NCBI RefSeq assembly: GCF_004785955.1
Contig: NZ_ML214300.1
Span: 361,223-425,222 of the forward strand
Direction: 5' to 3'
DNA from: Halostella litorea
GTDB taxonomy: Archaea; Halobacteriota; Halobacteria; Halobacteriales; Natronoarchaeaceae
Length of the DNA: 64,000 nt
Made by a program: the position numbers and the translations under genes. Below the pieces are notes generated by a model. That model did not search any database, was not told the origin of the DNA, and saw only the letters and a program-made list of their open reading frames with translations. Every line of letters starts with the position of its first letter. Position 1 is the stretch's first letter. Positions 16,918 through 23,801 of the stretch are shown here, in pieces.

Positions 16918-17854
16918 CGGCGGTCTCTAACTCCGGCCCCAGCGGCGCGCCGACGACGACGCCGTCGGCGTACTCCAGTATCTCCGCCAGCCGCTCGGCT
17001 ACCGACTCCTCCGTCCCGGCGACCGAGAACGCGTCTATCATCGCGGGCGTCACCGCCGCGAACGCCTCGCGGAACTCGCCGGCCTCGATCGACGCGCCGA
17101 TATCGCCGGCCAGTTCCTCGTCGATCCCGTGGCGCTGCAACACCGGCGGGGCCGCGCCGCCGGCGATGAACGCGACCGGCGGGCGGGCGGCCTCCCGGGC
17201 CGCCGCCTCGTCCTCGGCGACGCTGACGCTCGCGTACGCCGTGAAGTCGAACTCGCCGCGGTCGGCCGGGCGCTCGGCCAGCCCCTCCTCGACGCGCTCG
17301 GCCGCCCACGCGAAGTCGTCCGGGTGGGAGGCGTTCAGCAGGACGCCGTCGGCGTGTTTCGCGCTCATCCGGACCATGTGTGGCCCCTGCGCGCCGACGT
17401 AGACGGGGATGTCGCCGGCGTCGTAGTTCAGCGCGGCGTCGGTCGCCTCGAACGTTCCGTCGTGGGTGACGGTCTCCCCGTCCCAGAGCCGCTGTGCGAC
17501 CTTGAACGCCTCCAGCACGCGCCGGAGCGGCCGGTCGGAGTCGTAGCCGAGGTTCGCGAGCGTCGACCGGTCGCCGGCCGCGACCCCGAACACGCCGCGG
17601 CCGTCGCTGACCTCGTCGACGGTGGCGACCGCTGACGCCAGCTTCACGGGGTGGGTGTCGTACGGGTTCGCCGCGGCGGGGCCGACCGCCACGTCGTCGG
17701 TGGCGGCGGCGATCCGCGACAGCGCGACGAACGGGTCGCGGTTGTTGTAGTGACAACTCGCCAGCACGGCCTCGAACCCCGCGGCCTCGGCGCGCGCCGC
17801 CAGGTCCGCGACGCGGTCGAGCGAGTGCTCGGGGGTGAGTTCGATCCCGATCAC
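16874..17854 (-). CDS. mer: Mer-like F420-dependent LLM oxidoreductase (5,10-methylenetetrahydromethanopterin reductase family)
   Basis: 326 residues from a GTG (VIGIELTPEHSLDRV). The TIM-barrel pattern of luciferase-like monooxygenases is visible: an N-terminal strand, GPAAANPYDTHPVKLASAVATVDE, GRGVFGVAAGDRS, and IPVYVGAQGPHMVRMSAKHADG. This matches the family of methylenetetrahydromethanopterin reductase, which uses reduced F420. Haloarchaea are not methanogens, so the real substrate may be a folate or another compound. The start overlaps the cofE stop by 4 nt (GTGA), a strong link to F420 biosynthesis. Confidence 0.87.
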   Translation of the reverse strand: MIGIELTPEHSLDRVADLAARAEAAGFEAVLASCHYNNRDPFVALSRIAAATDDVAVGPAAANPYDTHPVKLASAVATVDEVSDGRGVFGVAAGDRSTLANLGYDSDRPLRRVLEAFKVAQRLWDGETVTHDGTFEATDAALNYDAGDIPVYVGAQGPHMVRMSAKHADGVLLNASHPDDFAWAAERVEEGLAERPADRGEFDFTAYASVSVAEDEAAAREAARPPVAFIAGGAAPPVLQRHGIDEELAGDIGASIEAGEFREAFAAVTPAMIDAFSVAGTEESVAERLAEILEYADGVVVGAPLGPELETAVSLAGAALDRATRG

Positions 17855-18609
17855 GGCTCGTACTCCCACGCCTCCAGCGCCTGGCGCACGAGGTCCGCCT
17901 CGCGGTCGCGGAACAGTTCGTCGCTGCCGCCGTGGTCGCCGAACTCCCAGTCCCGGACGACCGCGACGGGTTTGCCGCCGTCGCCCTCGCCGGTGACGAG
18001 GTTGGCCGCCGCGGCCAGTTCGTCGACGACCGACTCGACGGTGGCCTCCAGTTCGTGGCCGTCGCGGTCGGTCTCGCCGCGCCAGTCGCGGCTGGCCGGC
18101 ATCCCGGCGTAGCCGACGGCGACGCCGCGCTGCCCGTGACGGAACGGCCGCCCGCTGGTGTCGGTGACGACGACCGCGGCGTCGGCCGAGAGGTTCGCCC
18201 GGATCCGCTCGGCGCTCGCGTCGGGGTCCTCGGGGAGCAAGAGCAGGTCCGCGTCGGGCACGTTCGACCGGTCGATCCCCGCGTTGACGCCGACGTGGCC
18301 GAAGCGCGTCTTCGCGAGCAGGAACGGGGCCTCCGTGAGCAGCGCCTCGCTCTCCTCGATGACGGCCTGTGCGAAGCGCGGGTCCTTCTCCTCGCCGGTG
18401 ATCGACGCCAGGCGCTCGGCGATAGCCTCGGCGCGGTCGCCGGCCGGGAACGCCGACAGGTCGGCGGCCCGGCCCTCCGCCTTCGAGACGACGGTGCTTG
18501 CGACCACGACCACGTCGTCGTCCCGGACGTCCATCCGGTCCTCGATCAGCGCGGCGAGGTCGTCGCCCCGCCGCACCTCCGGGAGTCCCGGGACAGCGAA
18601 CACTTCCAT
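17851..18609 (-). CDS. cofE: Coenzyme F420-0:L-glutamate ligase
   Basis: 252 residues. It adds glutamates to F420-0 in a GTP-dependent step. Recognisable blocks: N-terminal VFAVPGLPEVRRGDDLAALI, VVASTVVSKAEGR, GVNAGIDRSNVPDADLLLLPEDPD, VVVTDTSGRPFRHGQRGVAVGYAG, and the dimerisation region with DELAAAANLVTGEG. Length is typical for the stand-alone archaeal CofE. It sits upstream of and overlaps the mer-like gene, forming a two-gene F420 synthesis/use unit. Confidence 0.95.
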   Translation of the reverse strand: MEVFAVPGLPEVRRGDDLAALIEDRMDVRDDDVVVVASTVVSKAEGRAADLSAFPAGDRAEAIAERLASITGEEKDPRFAQAVIEESEALLTEAPFLLAKTRFGHVGVNAGIDRSNVPDADLLLLPEDPDASAERIRANLSADAAVVVTDTSGRPFRHGQRGVAVGYAGMPASRDWRGETDRDGHELEATVESVVDELAAAANLVTGEGDGGKPVAVVRDWEFGDHGGSDELFRDREADLVRQALEAWEYEP

Positions 18610-18711: not shown

Positions 18712-19233
18712 TCAGGGGCGGCGCACGGTCGCGTCCACCTCGCCGTCGTCGACCGCGACGGTCAGCATCGTCGCCTCGCTCGCCGGGTCGGCACCCGTCG
18801 CGCTGCCGGGGTTGAGCAGGCGGACCGTCCGCCCGTTCGCCTCGACGCGCTCGTCCATGACCCGGTGGGTGTGCCCCGCGACCCCGACCACCGGCGGCGC
18901 GGCCGCCGCGCTCTCGGCCTCGTCGGCGACGATGCCGGCGACGCGCTCGCGGTAGTTCCGCACCGCCCCGGTACCGTGGACGACGACGAACGTCGCGCCG
19001 CCGAGTTCGACGGTCGCAACGTCCGGCAGGTCGAGGGTGACCGGGTCCATGTTCCCGGCGACGGCGGTGAGGTCGGCCGCCAGGGCCGCCACCTCGTCGT
19101 ACGCCTCCGCCGAGTCGAAGTCGCCCGCGTGGACGACGTGGTCGGCCGCCCCCATCCGCTCGCGGACCCACTCCGGGATCGTATCGGCCCGCGTCGGCAC
19201 GTGCGTGTCGCTGACGACGGCTACTTCGGGCAT
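18712..19233 (-). CDS. YfcE/MJ0936-type metallophosphoesterase
   Basis: 173 residues with the calcineurin-like metal-binding motifs: SDTHV (residues 8-12), HAGDFDS, GNMD, VVHG, and GHTHRVMD. This is the small phosphodiesterase family typified by YfcE and MJ0936, with broad activity on phosphodiesters in vitro and no settled physiological substrate. It lies about 100 bp upstream of cofE on the same strand and is divergent from the Nudix-eIF2B-like gene, with 58 bp between starts. Confidence 0.93.
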   Translation of the reverse strand: MPEVAVVSDTHVPTRADTIPEWVRERMGAADHVVHAGDFDSAEAYDEVAALAADLTAVAGNMDPVTLDLPDVATVELGGATFVVVHGTGAVRNYRERVAGIVADEAESAAAAPPVVGVAGHTHRVMDERVEANGRTVRLLNPGSATGADPASEATMLTVAVDDGEVDATVRRP

Positions 19234-19291
19234 GTTCGCACTTCGGCCCGAACCCCGAAAGAAGTTCCCGGTGGCGCGAGTACGCCGGCGT

Positions 19292-20533
19292 ATGCCCGAC
19301 GCGTTCGCGTGTTTCCTCCGGAACGACGGCGAGGTACTGCTGTGTCGACGCGGCGACGACCCCGAGACCGGTGACGGGCCGACCGCGGAGTCCGCCGAGT
19401 GGGACGTGCCGCGCGCGCCGGCCGGCGACGACCCGGAAGCGGTGGCCACCGCCCTCGCGGAGCGCGCCGCGGGCGACGCGACGCTCGTGCGGAGCGGCCG
19501 TGCCGTCGACGCCGGGGGCGAGTCGGTCCGCCCCTTCCTGTTCGACTGCGCGGACCGGTCGGTCGACTCGGCGGCGCTCCCCGGCGACCCCGCGGAGACG
19601 GCGTGGGCGACGCCGACGGAACTGCTCCGGCGCGACGCCGGGCCGGGCGCGTGGCGGGCGTACGAGGTCGTCGCGCCGACGGTGCGCTCGGTCGCGGCGG
19701 ACGACGAACACGGGTCGGCGTACCTCTCGGTGCGTGCGCTGGAGGTCCTGCGCGACCGCGCCGCCGTGGTCGCCGACGAGGGCGCGGCCGACGACGCCGA
19801 ACTCCGGGACCTGGCGGCCCGCCTGCGCCGCGCCCGGCCGAGCATGGCCGCGCTCCACAACCGCGTCAACCGCGCCGTCGCCGAGGCCGACGGGACGCCG
19901 GCCGGCGTCGAGGCCAGCGCCGACGGCGGTATCGACCGCGCCATCCGGGCCGACGAGGGGGCCGCGAGCGCCGCCGCCGACCGCGTCCGCGGCGAGCACG
20001 CGCTGACGCTCTCCCGCTCGGGCACCGTCCTCGCGGCGCTGCGCGAGGGGCCGCCCGCCGCGCTGTTCGTCGCGGAGTCCCGCCCCGGGAACGAGGGCGT
20101 CGGCGTCGCCGAGACGCTGGCCGACGGGACGAGCGTGACGCTCCACACGGACGCCGCGGCCGCGCACGTGCTGGCGACGGCGGACGTCGACGCCGTCCTC
20201 GTCGGCGCGGACACCGTCCTGCCCGACGGAAGCGTCGTGAACAAGACCGGCACCCGCGCCGTCGCGCTCGCCGCGGCGCGGGAGGGCGTCCCGCTGTACG
20301 CCGCCGCCGCCAGCGACAAGGTAGCGACCGACGAGGAGGTGCCCCTGGAGTCGGGCGACCGCGCGGCGGTGTACGACGGCGACGCGCCGGTCGACGTGCG
20401 CAACCCCACGTTCGACGTGACGCCGCCGGACCTGGTCGAGGCCGTCGTCACCGAGCGCGGCGCGCTGTCGCCCGACGACGTGGCCGACGTCGCCGAGGAA
20501 CTGCGGGAACTGGCCGAGCGCGCGGACGAGTAA
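19292..20533 (+). CDS. Fusion of degenerate Nudix domain with eIF2B alpha/beta/delta-like domain
   Basis: 413 residues. Residues 1-130 resemble a Nudix fold (FACFLRNDGEVLLCRRG, EWDVPRAPAGDDP), but the catalytic Nudix box REUXEE is not retained: the equivalent helix reads ALAERAAGD. From about 150 to the end is an eIF2B/ribose-1,5-bisphosphate isomerase-like domain: VFVAESRPGNEG-like text, VLVGADTVLPDGSVVNKTGT, and VPLYAAAASDKV. The conserved NK.GT loop of that superfamily is present. Whether it acts on eIF2, on a sugar phosphate or on a nucleotide-derived ligand cannot be decided from the sequence. The fusion occurs in other haloarchaea as far as I recall. Confidence 0.85.
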   Translation: MPDAFACFLRNDGEVLLCRRGDDPETGDGPTAESAEWDVPRAPAGDDPEAVATALAERAAGDATLVRSGRAVDAGGESVRPFLFDCADRSVDSAALPGDPAETAWATPTELLRRDAGPGAWRAYEVVAPTVRSVAADDEHGSAYLSVRALEVLRDRAAVVADEGAADDAELRDLAARLRRARPSMAALHNRVNRAVAEADGTPAGVEASADGGIDRAIRADEGAASAAADRVRGEHALTLSRSGTVLAALREGPPAALFVAESRPGNEGVGVAETLADGTSVTLHTDAAAAHVLATADVDAVLVGADTVLPDGSVVNKTGTRAVALAAAREGVPLYAAAASDKVATDEEVPLESGDRAAVYDGDAPVDVRNPTFDVTPPDLVEAVVTERGALSPDDVADVAEELRELAERADE

Positions 20534-20684: not shown

Positions 20685-21068
20685 ATGACGCAACAGCGAT
20701 CCGAGGGCCGGGCGGCCGAGGGACAGGACCAGCAGTCCGCGGGCTGCTGTTCGGGGCCGCACGCGCACTCCCTCCCCGAGTCGGCGGTGGCCGCCGACGT
20801 GGACGTGCTCGCGACGCTCGGGAACGACACGCGGTACGAGGCGCTCCGGGTCATCGCCGAGGGCGACGACGACGGCGTCTGCGTCTGCGAGATAGAGCCC
20901 GCGCTCGGCGTCAGCCAGGGCGCGGTGAGCCAGGCGCTCTCGCGGCTGTTCAGCGCCGGGCTGGTCGAGCGGCGAAAGGAGGGGCGCTGGCGGTACTACA
21001 CGCCGACGCCCCGGGCGGAGCGCCTGCTCCGCGTCCTCGACGACACGAGGTCGGTCGATGATGAGTGA
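20685..21068 (+). CDS. arsR: ArsR-family metalloregulatory repressor
   Basis: 127 residues. Winged-helix domain with the ArsR recognition helix (GVSQGAVSQALSRLFSAGLV), a wing (KEGRWRYYTP), and a metal-sensing C66-V-C68 motif in the alpha-3 region (GVCVCEIE), like the ELCVCDL of arsenic sensors. The N-terminal extension carries a second possible metal site, C21-C22 with H26 and H28. It probably represses its own operon until As(III) binds. The stop overlaps the arsM start by 8-11 nt. Confidence 0.93.
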   Translation: MTQQRSEGRAAEGQDQQSAGCCSGPHAHSLPESAVAADVDVLATLGNDTRYEALRVIAEGDDDGVCVCEIEPALGVSQGAVSQALSRLFSAGLVERRKEGRWRYYTPTPRAERLLRVLDDTRSVDDE

Positions 21069-21906
21069 CGGCGGTTCCGCCGACGCGGGCGGCGACGGCC
21101 TCTCCGCCGCGGAGCAGCGGTCGGCCGTCCGCGAGCGCTACGCCAGCATCGCCGAAGAGGGGTCGACGTGTTGCGGCGACGGAGCGGCGTCGACCGGCGG
21201 CGGGGGTGACGACGGCCCGCGCGACGCCGCCGCGCGGTCGCGCGCGGTGGGCTACGGGGCCGACGACGTCGACGCCGTCGACGGGGACGCGAATCTGGGC
21301 CTCGGCTGTGGCAACCCGACCGCTATCGCCGGCCTCGAGGCGGGCGAGACCGTCCTCGACCTCGGCTCCGGCGGGGGGTTCGACTGCTTCCTCGCGGCCC
21401 GGGAGGTCGGCGAGGACGGCCGCGTCGTCGGCGTCGACATGACCCCCGAGATGGTCGAGACGGCCCGCGAGAACGTCGCCGAAAACGACGCCGGCAACGT
21501 CGAGTTCAGGCTCGGCGAGATCGAACACCTCCCGGTCGCCGACGGGAGCGTCGACGTGATCCTCTCGAACTGCGTGATCAACCTCTCGCCGGACAAGCCG
21601 CAGGTGTTCCGCGAGGCGTACCGCGTGCTCCGACCGGGCGGCCGCCTGGCCGTCTCGGACGTCGTCATGACCGCCGACGTCCCGGCCGACCTGCGCGACG
21701 ACCCGACGTCGGTCGCCGCCTGCGTCGCCGGCGCGGCGACGGTGCCGGAACTGGAGGCGATGCTCGCCGACGCCGGCTTCGCCGACGTGGCCGTCGAGCC
21801 GAAGGCCGAGAGCGAGGCGTTCGTCCGCGAATGGGACCCCGACCGCGACCTGAGCGAGTACGTCGCGTCGGCGCGAATAGCCGCGGAGAAACCAGCAGAC
21901 GACTGA
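21058..21906 (+). CDS. arsM: Arsenite S-adenosylmethionine methyltransferase
   Basis: 282 residues (two adjacent ATGs at 21058 and 21061). SAM-binding motif VLDLGSGGGFDCFLAA and VVGVDMTPEMV, then SNCVINLSPDKPQVFREAYRVL and the arsenic-binding cysteines typical of ArsM: an N-terminal CC (about 38-39), LGCGNP, SNC and AACVAGA. The enzyme methylates As(III) to mono-, di- and trimethyl arsenicals, with release as volatile or oxidised products. It is co-transcribed with arsR. There is no arsenite pump (ArsB, Acr3) or arsenate reductase in the window, so methylation appears to be the local detoxification route. Confidence 0.95.
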   Translation: MMSDGGSADAGGDGLSAAEQRSAVRERYASIAEEGSTCCGDGAASTGGGGDDGPRDAAARSRAVGYGADDVDAVDGDANLGLGCGNPTAIAGLEAGETVLDLGSGGGFDCFLAAREVGEDGRVVGVDMTPEMVETARENVAENDAGNVEFRLGEIEHLPVADGSVDVILSNCVINLSPDKPQVFREAYRVLRPGGRLAVSDVVMTADVPADLRDDPTSVAACVAGAATVPELEAMLADAGFADVAVEPKAESEAFVREWDPDRDLSEYVASARIAAEKPADD

Positions 21907-22722: not shown

Positions 22723-22871
22723 TCGCCCGGTGGCGATGAAGACAGTTACCCCCTCCGAGCCCCTTGTGACGAGGCCTTCACCCGAGCCACCGTCCGACGC
22801 GTAGCGACCGTTTCTCGGCAGCGTCGCCCTTCGGCGCAAGATTGAACCCCGATATCCGCGAATGGGTGGCC

Positions 22872-23801
22872 ATGCAACTCCGTCGCCTCGGAATCGACGA
22901 CTCCGTCAGCGTCATCTTCCCGCCGGACAGGCTCGCCGCCGAACTGTCGGACGTGGGCGTCGAGGTCACCGTCGGCGAGGACCCCGGCGACCTCGCGGAA
23001 TGCGACGCCGTCGTCACGTTCGCCCACCGCGGCGACTACCTCGAAACCGCCGACTGGGTCCACTCGATACAGGCCGGCTACGACCGCTTCCCGCTTGCGG
23101 AGTTCGAGGCGCGGGACGTCGCGCTGACCAACAGCACGGGCGTCCACTACGACAGCGTCGGCGAGACGGTGGCGAGCTACGTGCTCGCGTTCGCCCGCCG
23201 GCTGCACGACGCCGTCGCCGCCCAGCAGCGCCGGGCGTGGGACCGCCCCGAGTGGCACGAACCGTTCACCGTCGCCGGCGAGTCGATATGCGTCGTCGGC
23301 CTCGGCGCGCTGGGCCGGGGCATCGCCGACCGCGCGGCCGGCCTCGGGATGGACGTGACCGGCGTCAAGCGAACGCCCGAGGACGTGCCGGGCGTCGGCG
23401 AGGTGTACCCCAGCGACGAGTACCGGGACGCCATCGCGGACGCCCGCTTCGTCGCGCTCGCGGTGCCGCTGACCGACGAGACCGAGGGGATGATCGGCGA
23501 GGCGGAACTCGACGCGATGCGCGACGACGCGTACCTCCTGAACGTCGCCCGCGGCGACGTGGTCGACCAGGACGCGCTGGTCGCCGCGCTGGAGGCCGAC
23601 CGGATCGCGGGCGCGGCGCTCGACGTGTTCGAGGAGGAGCCCCTGCCCGAGAACTCGCCGCTGTGGGGGATGGACGAGGTGATCGTCACGCCCCACACCG
23701 CGGGGGCGACGCGGGACTACGCGGGCAACGTGGCCGAACTGGTCCGGGAGAACGCCGGCCGGATCGCCGACGGCGAGGAGCTACACAACCGCGTCGTCTG
23801 A
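22872..23801 (+). CDS. D-2-hydroxyacid dehydrogenase (NAD-dependent)
   Basis: 309 residues. Rossmann motif CVVGLGALGRGIADRAAGLG, catalytic Arg in LNVARGDVVD, Glu in LDVFEEEPLPE and His in VTPHTAG: the full Arg-Glu-His set of D-2-hydroxyacid dehydrogenases. The ATG at 22872 is preferred over the upstream TTG of the same frame. Substrate specificity (glyoxylate, hydroxypyruvate, branched 2-oxoacids) cannot be read from the sequence. It is convergent with the nucleoside hydrolase gene, 33 bp apart. Confidence 0.92.
   Translation: MQLRRLGIDDSVSVIFPPDRLAAELSDVGVEVTVGEDPGDLAECDAVVTFAHRGDYLETADWVHSIQAGYDRFPLAEFEARDVALTNSTGVHYDSVGETVASYVLAFARRLHDAVAAQQRRAWDRPEWHEPFTVAGESICVVGLGALGRGIADRAAGLGMDVTGVKRTPEDVPGVGEVYPSDEYRDAIADARFVALAVPLTDETEGMIGEAELDAMRDDAYLLNVARGDVVDQDALVAALEADRIAGAALDVFEEEPLPENSPLWGMDEVIVTPHTAGATRDYAGNVAELVRENAGRIADGEELHNRVV

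Follow-up and report, generated by a model that had tools for sequence, protein, structure and literature searches.

A haloarchaeal Nudix–eIF2B-fold fusion protein with a degenerate Nudix half and an invariant eIF2B-fold pocket

In a window of 64,000 nucleotides from Halostella litorea, by which we mean the whole stretch of DNA analysed, one gene encodes what we read, with moderate confidence from its sequence, as an HVO_1934-like fusion in which the Nudix half, its hydrolase site lost, persists as a drifting structural remnant, and in which the conserved function lies in the eIF2B half. An earlier note on this DNA had described a degenerate Nudix domain fused to an eIF2B-fold domain, and this was borne out: a single 413-aa gene carries PF01008 in its C-terminal part (160.9 bits in the Pfam search, cut-off 22.4; Table 1). 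The fusion of Nudix-derived and eIF2B-fold halves in one gene is real. The architecture is already annotated and its function unexplained. The available part of PMC8576121 lists HVO_1934 of H. volcanii as a 'NUDIX family hydrolase/eIF-2B domain protein', aIF2Bsu, of 43.2 kDa; judged by description, size and class, not by sequence, HVO_1934 would be an orthologue. In the accessible text of the open-access literature, supplements aside, we found no study on the role of the Nudix half or on its loss.

Table 1. Coordinates of the fusion gene, its parts and its neighbours in the window
Feature	Position	Strand	Basis or remark
CofE-like gene (our assignment), beyond the phosphoesterase	17851..18609	-	homologue upstream in 42/90 loci, adjacent in 24
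Calcineurin-like (Metallophos_2) phosphoesterase, divergent, 58 bp off	18712..19233	-	start by eye; PF12850 E 1.1e-29 on 18712-19257
Whole fusion gene P0001, 413 aa	19292..20533	+	ATG start, no internal stop
Nudix-derived domain without catalytic box, residues 1-118	19292..19645	+	alignment with relatives; AlphaFold2 strand/helix order; no Pfam Nudix match
Site of former Nudix box, residues 37-60; Glu columns are L, R, A	19400..19471	+	
eIF2B/isomerase-fold domain PF01008, residues 139-394	19706..20473	+	E 5e-47
His140 at place of PH0208 Arg22 (1-phosphate site)	19709..19711	+	H in 142/147
LSRSGTV, residues 240-246; Ser241 for catalytic Cys135, Ser243 at 5-phosphate Ser137	20009..20029	+	both 147/147
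ESRPGNEG, residues 262-269; Glu268 for 1-phosphate Gln166	20075..20098	+	E 147/147
GAD, residues 305-307; Asp307 = PH0208 Asp204	20204..20212	+	D 147/147
NKTGT, residues 317-321; Asn317/Lys318 = Asn214/Lys215	20240..20254	+	N, K 147/147
Lys343 = 5-phosphate Lys240	20318..20320	+	K 146/147
D-2-hydroxyacid dehydrogenase, downstream	22842..23801	+	PF02826 E 3.6e-53; homologue downstream on same strand in 54/90 loci

The catalytic Nudix site is absent from the window protein, in which the three Glu columns of the REUXEE motif hold Leu, Arg and Ala. A Pfam search of P0001 at E ≤ 1, with filters that remove most matches above ~0.1, listed no Nudix model, and a PF00293 search of the whole H. litorea genome found 13 Nudix places, none of them at the fusion gene. 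Among relatives, PF00293 matches 24 of the 29 family members (best 5.1e-14), and the model of a Halobacterium relative with an intact box (L023; pLDDT 92.2) superposes over about residues 1-130 on NudI, a putative E. coli Nudix enzyme, YmfB and the NrtR Nudix domain (Z 15.8-16.6; Z 16.6, rmsd 2.4 and 128 aligned residues against 3n77). In the AlphaFold2 model of P0001 itself (mean pLDDT 89.1, pTM 0.89), the N-terminal elements run E E E H E E E E H, which we take to be the Nudix order. Because the aligned relatives match PF00293, L023 superposes on Nudix structures and the P0001 model shows this order, residues 1-118 are a Nudix fold by descent. The former box is the weakest part of the model, residues 21-60 having block pLDDT values of 53-69 (53 at 21-30, 65-69 at 37-60). 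Among the best 50 fold-search matches listed for the window model, the eIF2B half and sugar isomerases are represented and the Nudix half is absent, which is a weak test. In the Halostella pelagica copy (L001 5001-6428), acidic repeats (TREGED...) stand in place of the Nudix box, a striking case of decay.

The earlier description of REUXEE as not conserved holds for the window protein but not for the family. Counted by alignment columns in 149 distinct proteins, all three Glu are kept in 118, two in 3, and one or none in 28; the set is non-random (28 loci, the best-scoring loci, 30 genomes taken for spread and low scores, and 60 stretches at about one to three per genus), and 28 is thus not a class frequency. 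The Arg of REUXEE is kept in 45/149 and replaced in most. Gene starts of relatives were set by rule, loci L174-L183 were left out, and 'lost' denotes fewer than two of the three Glu, by which L122 and L127 count as intact. The common intact form, for example SGFAEGDPDTQVRVEIREETGL in L010, has two residues fewer than NudI ahead of REUXEE, and an eight-sequence profile aligned with NudI has the same two-residue gap, which departs from the canonical spacing of a box that we take to be 23 residues long. This short spacing occurs in most alignment rows; L027 and L028 are longer. Because of the two missing residues ahead of REUXEE, intact boxes are atypical, and hydrolase activity of the relatives that carry them is presumed. 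L027 and L099 share a long branch and have intact REIREE boxes, with a longer loop in L027, and are useful for the ancestral state.

Box state was mapped on a tree of the eIF2B half only, built from 98 family rows and 4 outgroup rows; 49 of the 61 intact Natrialbaceae/f4 rows were thinned from it, and L112, whose frame is split in two, was excluded both from the tree and from the 147 rows used for the pocket below. The box changed state 14 times on this tree (over the bootstrap trees, the 5% point is 12 and the 95% point 14), and at least eight changes are forced by strong branches; a quick tree gave 14 changes, 7 of them forced. None of 200 bootstrap trees, in a bootstrap that is not fully settled, placed the lost rows on one side of a branch. 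Parsimony is blind to gain versus loss, and convergent regain of a three-Glu box would be implausible. By this tree, loss of the box happened repeatedly, including in the window's own family, where all eight distinct fusion rows examined are without it (seven from f1 genomes, and H. pelagica L001, which does not differ from the copy in G002, a genome of the same genus). The dead box is a trait of this and some other lineages; on the alignment, most relatives examined are not dead.

To compare the two halves, Nei-Gojobori rates were computed on disjoint pairs of relatives, which were picked after a first set of 18 partly overlapping pairs had been seen, the direction being equal in both. The 8 lost pairs gave ratios of dN in the Nudix half to dN in the eIF2B half of 0.95, 1.60, 1.61, 1.73, 2.35, 2.46, 2.95 and 2.96, against 0.54-1.52 for the 16 intact ones (one-sided Mann-Whitney test, p = 4e-5); measured against the eIF2B half, the rate of the Nudix half roughly doubles once the box is gone. 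The top intact ratios (1.44, 1.52) approach the lowest accelerated ones (1.60, 1.61), and the lost pair L035/L036, at 0.95, is not accelerated in relative terms. Between the window protein and its nearest relative, L032 (83% identical), the halves differed in dN/dS, with 0.62 for Nudix and 0.20 for eIF2B. Together with the open frame, the latter value ruled out a pseudogene or a sequencing error. Across dead Nudix halves dN/dS stayed below 1 (0.33-0.62 where defined, up to 0.70 in overlapping pairs). The dN ratios of lost and intact pairs show similar constraint on the two halves as long as the box is intact, and relaxed constraint on the Nudix half once the box is lost. Because dN/dS remains below 1 and one pair shows no acceleration, some constraint is left, and the box-less half likely retains a structural role.

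The earlier note had proposed that the dead Nudix fold senses a nucleotide or alarmone and so controls the eIF2B half. Nudix folds are able to act as sensors; in keeping with this, the ADP-ribose-bound Nudix domain of NrtR is among the structural matches of L023 (3gz8, Z 15.8), the weak profile matches of intact Nudix halves include the AraR regulator (E 0.066), and the Nudix-derived half is kept in most box-less relatives under a dN/dS below 1. NrtR does use its Nudix fold for ligand binding, but its partner is a DNA-binding domain whereas that of the window Nudix half has the eIF2B fold, and ligand binding is established for NrtR only. A dead domain recruited as a sensor should hold or acquire a constrained site, and none was seen in the box-less Nudix half, in which 34 of 119 N-terminal positions are identical among four genus members. 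The relaxed evolution (the Nudix half is the faster one in 7/8 box-less pairs), the low confidence of the modelled box region and the apparent lack of any Nudix domain in relatives L111 and L113 all speak against the proposal, which we regard as improbable. Because the Nudix half is faster relative to the eIF2B half after loss, the pattern is better explained by decay to a structural remnant than by a sensor under new constraint.

The fusion is widespread. In a class-wide draw, 232 of 292 Halobacteria genomes and 71 of 77 genera had a match at E ≤ 1e-60, and nearly all fetched matches were full fusions, the exceptions being L111 and L113 (eIF2B part), L107 (part-length) and L112 (split frame). 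The domains might have turned out to be separate genes in most relatives, as the earlier note had allowed; instead, the relatives carry the fusion. In a draw across the phylum, 64 of 392 genomes matched at E ≤ 1e-42, only three of them outside the order and all of one genus; the frames of these three are 314-316 aa long with the full isomerase signature, and the stretches fetched around them gave no Nudix match. Within the limits of this 392-genome draw, the fusion is, by these searches, a haloarchaeal trait. Scores place a fusion-type match in eight of the nine genomes of the window's family, and the ninth (89% complete) has a weak standalone-type match only. The fusion occurs as two adjacent pieces in G049, G072 and G159 (L112), possibly through gene decay or assembly errors. 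Genome G073 has two fusion copies, C1:306658 and C1:1294969; the copy at 1294969 (L090) is box-less.

The eIF2B half, in contrast to the decayed Nudix half, presents a nearly unchanging pocket. Residues of the Pyrococcus isomerase PH0208 were mapped on it by profile alignment (Arg22 by paralogue alignment) and counted over 147 rows; the individual equivalences are given in Table 1, to which Arg65 = Arg182 (140/147) is added. Seven pocket side-chain positions are the same in 147/147: S241, S243, T245, E268, D307, N317 and K318. This agrees with the earlier remark that GAD and the NKTGT loop are conserved. The available text of PMC5789824 reports that in PH0208 Ser137 and Lys240 hold the 5-phosphate, that Asp204, Asn214 and Lys215 hold the sugar, and that Arg22, Arg65, Gln166 and Lys215 hold the 1-phosphate. 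Residues on the sugar and 5-phosphate side are thus retained in the family, and those on the 1-phosphate side are partly altered, the Arg65 and Lys215 positions being kept. With its Nudix-derived half and its S/S/E/D/NK/K pocket, the window protein falls within the HVO_1934-type family, HVO_1934 being taken by description.

Among solved structures, ribose-1,5-bisphosphate (R15P) isomerases come closest, by profile as well as by fold: they are the top structure matches of both the window and the L023 models (window model against 3vm6, Z 31.6, rmsd 2.7, 287 aligned residues), and the first Foldseek match is the substrate-bound C135S mutant. The fold and the Asp, Asn-Lys, Ser and Lys of the sugar/5-phosphate site are shared with PH0208, TK0185 and the haloarchaeal Htur_0571 (PMC9700705, as far as its available text goes), but the window protein differs from PH0208/TK0185 in Ser for Cys, Glu for Gln, His for Arg22 and the fused Nudix half. 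The isomerase activity that the earlier note had put forward is hardly credible on this pocket, because the catalytic Cys is Ser and Gln is Glu in 147/147, and the Cys-to-Ser change inactivates the Pyrococcus enzyme: in the accessible part of PMC5789824, PH0208 C135S is inactive yet binds R15P with a Kd of 13.8 uM, and C135A shows no R15P binding. With 109.8 bits against TIGR00511, the window protein also falls far below the cut-off of 314.1, and R15P isomerase identity was rejected on the pocket (Ser, Glu) and this score. Likely true isomerases keep Cys/Gln/Arg, both in the class (L042, L043, L053) and outside it (L184-L186). The H. litorea genome has two PF01008 genes only, the fusion and a standalone paralogue, and no R15P isomerase above the TIGR00511 cut-off. 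Because Cys and Gln are replaced and the sugar/5-phosphate residues kept, the eIF2B half is probably not an R15P isomerase; binding of a sugar or nucleoside with a 5-phosphate is more likely.

The strict invariance of the pocket could equally mean an enzyme that is uncharacterised. The main rival to our reading is such an undiscovered activity, of an isomerase or another enzyme, in which the Ser/Asp/Glu/Lys pocket acts on a sugar-5-phosphate and the ancestral Nudix half was the upstream enzyme. We consider it unlikely, although the seven positions are invariant with family-specific replacements and the Asp204 and Lys215 positions, by contrast, differ in the standalone haloarchaeal paralogues (L030, L048, L050, L051); Cys-to-Ser inactivates the Pyrococcus isomerase, according to the available text of PMC5789824, and no clear pathway partner is at hand, the sole recurrent same-strand neighbour being the 2-hydroxyacid dehydrogenase (54/90 loci). 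Still less likely is a role as an aIF2B regulatory subunit in translation initiation. The fold is that of eIF2B alpha, beta and delta, and the H. volcanii protein of matching description was studied as 'aIF2Bsu' and co-isolated with RpoB2, an RNA polymerase subunit used as bait (PMC8576121), but in the accessible part of that paper its contacts with other initiation factors number only one or two, and reciprocal co-isolation with the other putative subunits is absent. In the available part of PMC3828320, deletion of HVO_1934, alone or in a double deletion with HVO_2706, has no phenotype, single and double mutants growing like wild type. These reports on a protein matched by description lend little support to the link to translation drawn in the earlier note. 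The standalone paralogues, which have open frames but none of the catalytic Cys, Asp and Lys, are a second unexplained pocket protein.

Our preferred reading, in which the conserved function lies in the eIF2B half, can be stated as a candidate mechanism. The eIF2B half would bind, probably without isomerising it, the 5-phosphate of a pentose or nucleoside. The Nudix half would be active in most relatives, where it would process a nucleotide and possibly supply the 5-phosphate ligand. Hydrolysis of ADP-ribose yields ribose-5-phosphate, and conversion of ADP-ribose to ribose-5-phosphate and AMP would fit the role of the Nudix half. Lineages without the box would obtain the ligand otherwise; the H. 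litorea genome has the 13 other Nudix places. By profile, NudI and other nucleoside triphosphatases are the solved Nudix relatives that come nearest, with no single substrate indicated; the profile of eight intact Nudix halves matches NudI at 5.4e-9, and L023 superposes on it, as noted, but the box loop is two residues shorter in most of the family and the box is missing from the window protein. Some Nudix enzymes are said, in a 2002 report by Fisher, to make ribose-1,5-bisphosphate from PRPP. For one Nudix protein this activity is described as not sufficiently supported in the available text of PMC5389931. A pocket protein for 5-phosphorylated sugars or nucleotides with an optional attached hydrolase is the best-supported reading. 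More tentatively, and with considerable doubt, one may imagine a nucleotide-to-sugar-phosphate relay, in which the 5-phosphate product of the ancestral Nudix half is read by the catalytically silenced pocket of the eIF2B fold, with its family-specific Ser/Glu signature.

The relay, if true, would give archaea a counterpart to the way eIF2B-alpha senses sugar phosphates, with a hydrolase half uncoupled many times independently and with natural 'reader only' versions such as the window protein. Eukaryotic eIF2B-alpha binds sugar phosphates in a pocket of the R15P-isomerase type (PMC8187479, available part) and, according to the accessible text of PMC5789824, lacks the 1-phosphate residues and keeps the rest; the window protein resembles it in a non-Cys pocket with the sugar/5-phosphate residues kept and the 1-phosphate residues changed, but has Asp where we take human Glu198 (PMC8187479) to be the equivalent, and has a Nudix fusion. 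Catalytic eIF2B subunits are not encoded in archaea (PMC8576121, available part), so that sensing of sugar phosphates by the pocket, if it occurs, would bear on the role of eIF2B-like proteins there. The eIF2B half is indicated as the carrier of the conserved function in a widespread, unexplained haloarchaeal fusion. Its natural Cys-to-Ser, Gln-to-Glu pocket is directly testable for 5-phosphate binding, and the repeated Nudix losses offer ready matched pairs with and without the hydrolase site. HVO_1934 shares the two-domain architecture, as described in the accessible part of PMC8576121, and also belongs to Halobacteria, a comparison made by description only; the window copy lacks the catalytic Glu.

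Around the fusion gene, gene order is partly conserved. Of 90 distinct loci, 43 have the phosphoesterase as the adjacent divergent gene, 24 the CofE-like gene and 23 neither; in the window, the phosphoesterase is followed by the gene that we take to be CofE-like and by one that is presumably LLM-like. The dehydrogenase count is within the flank available, which is ~1.5 kb in many of the 90 loci. The neighbourhood is a matter of conserved order, not evidence of function, and the dehydrogenase is a lead only. An operon inference was set aside, the upstream neighbours being divergent and variable. Between the fusion gene and the dehydrogenase at 22842 lie two genes at 20685-21906 (+), which we take to be an ArsR-type regulator and an ArsM-like methyltransferase. 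Because tblastn at E 1e-10 found no match for either gene in loci L001-L028, the pair looks like a local insertion.
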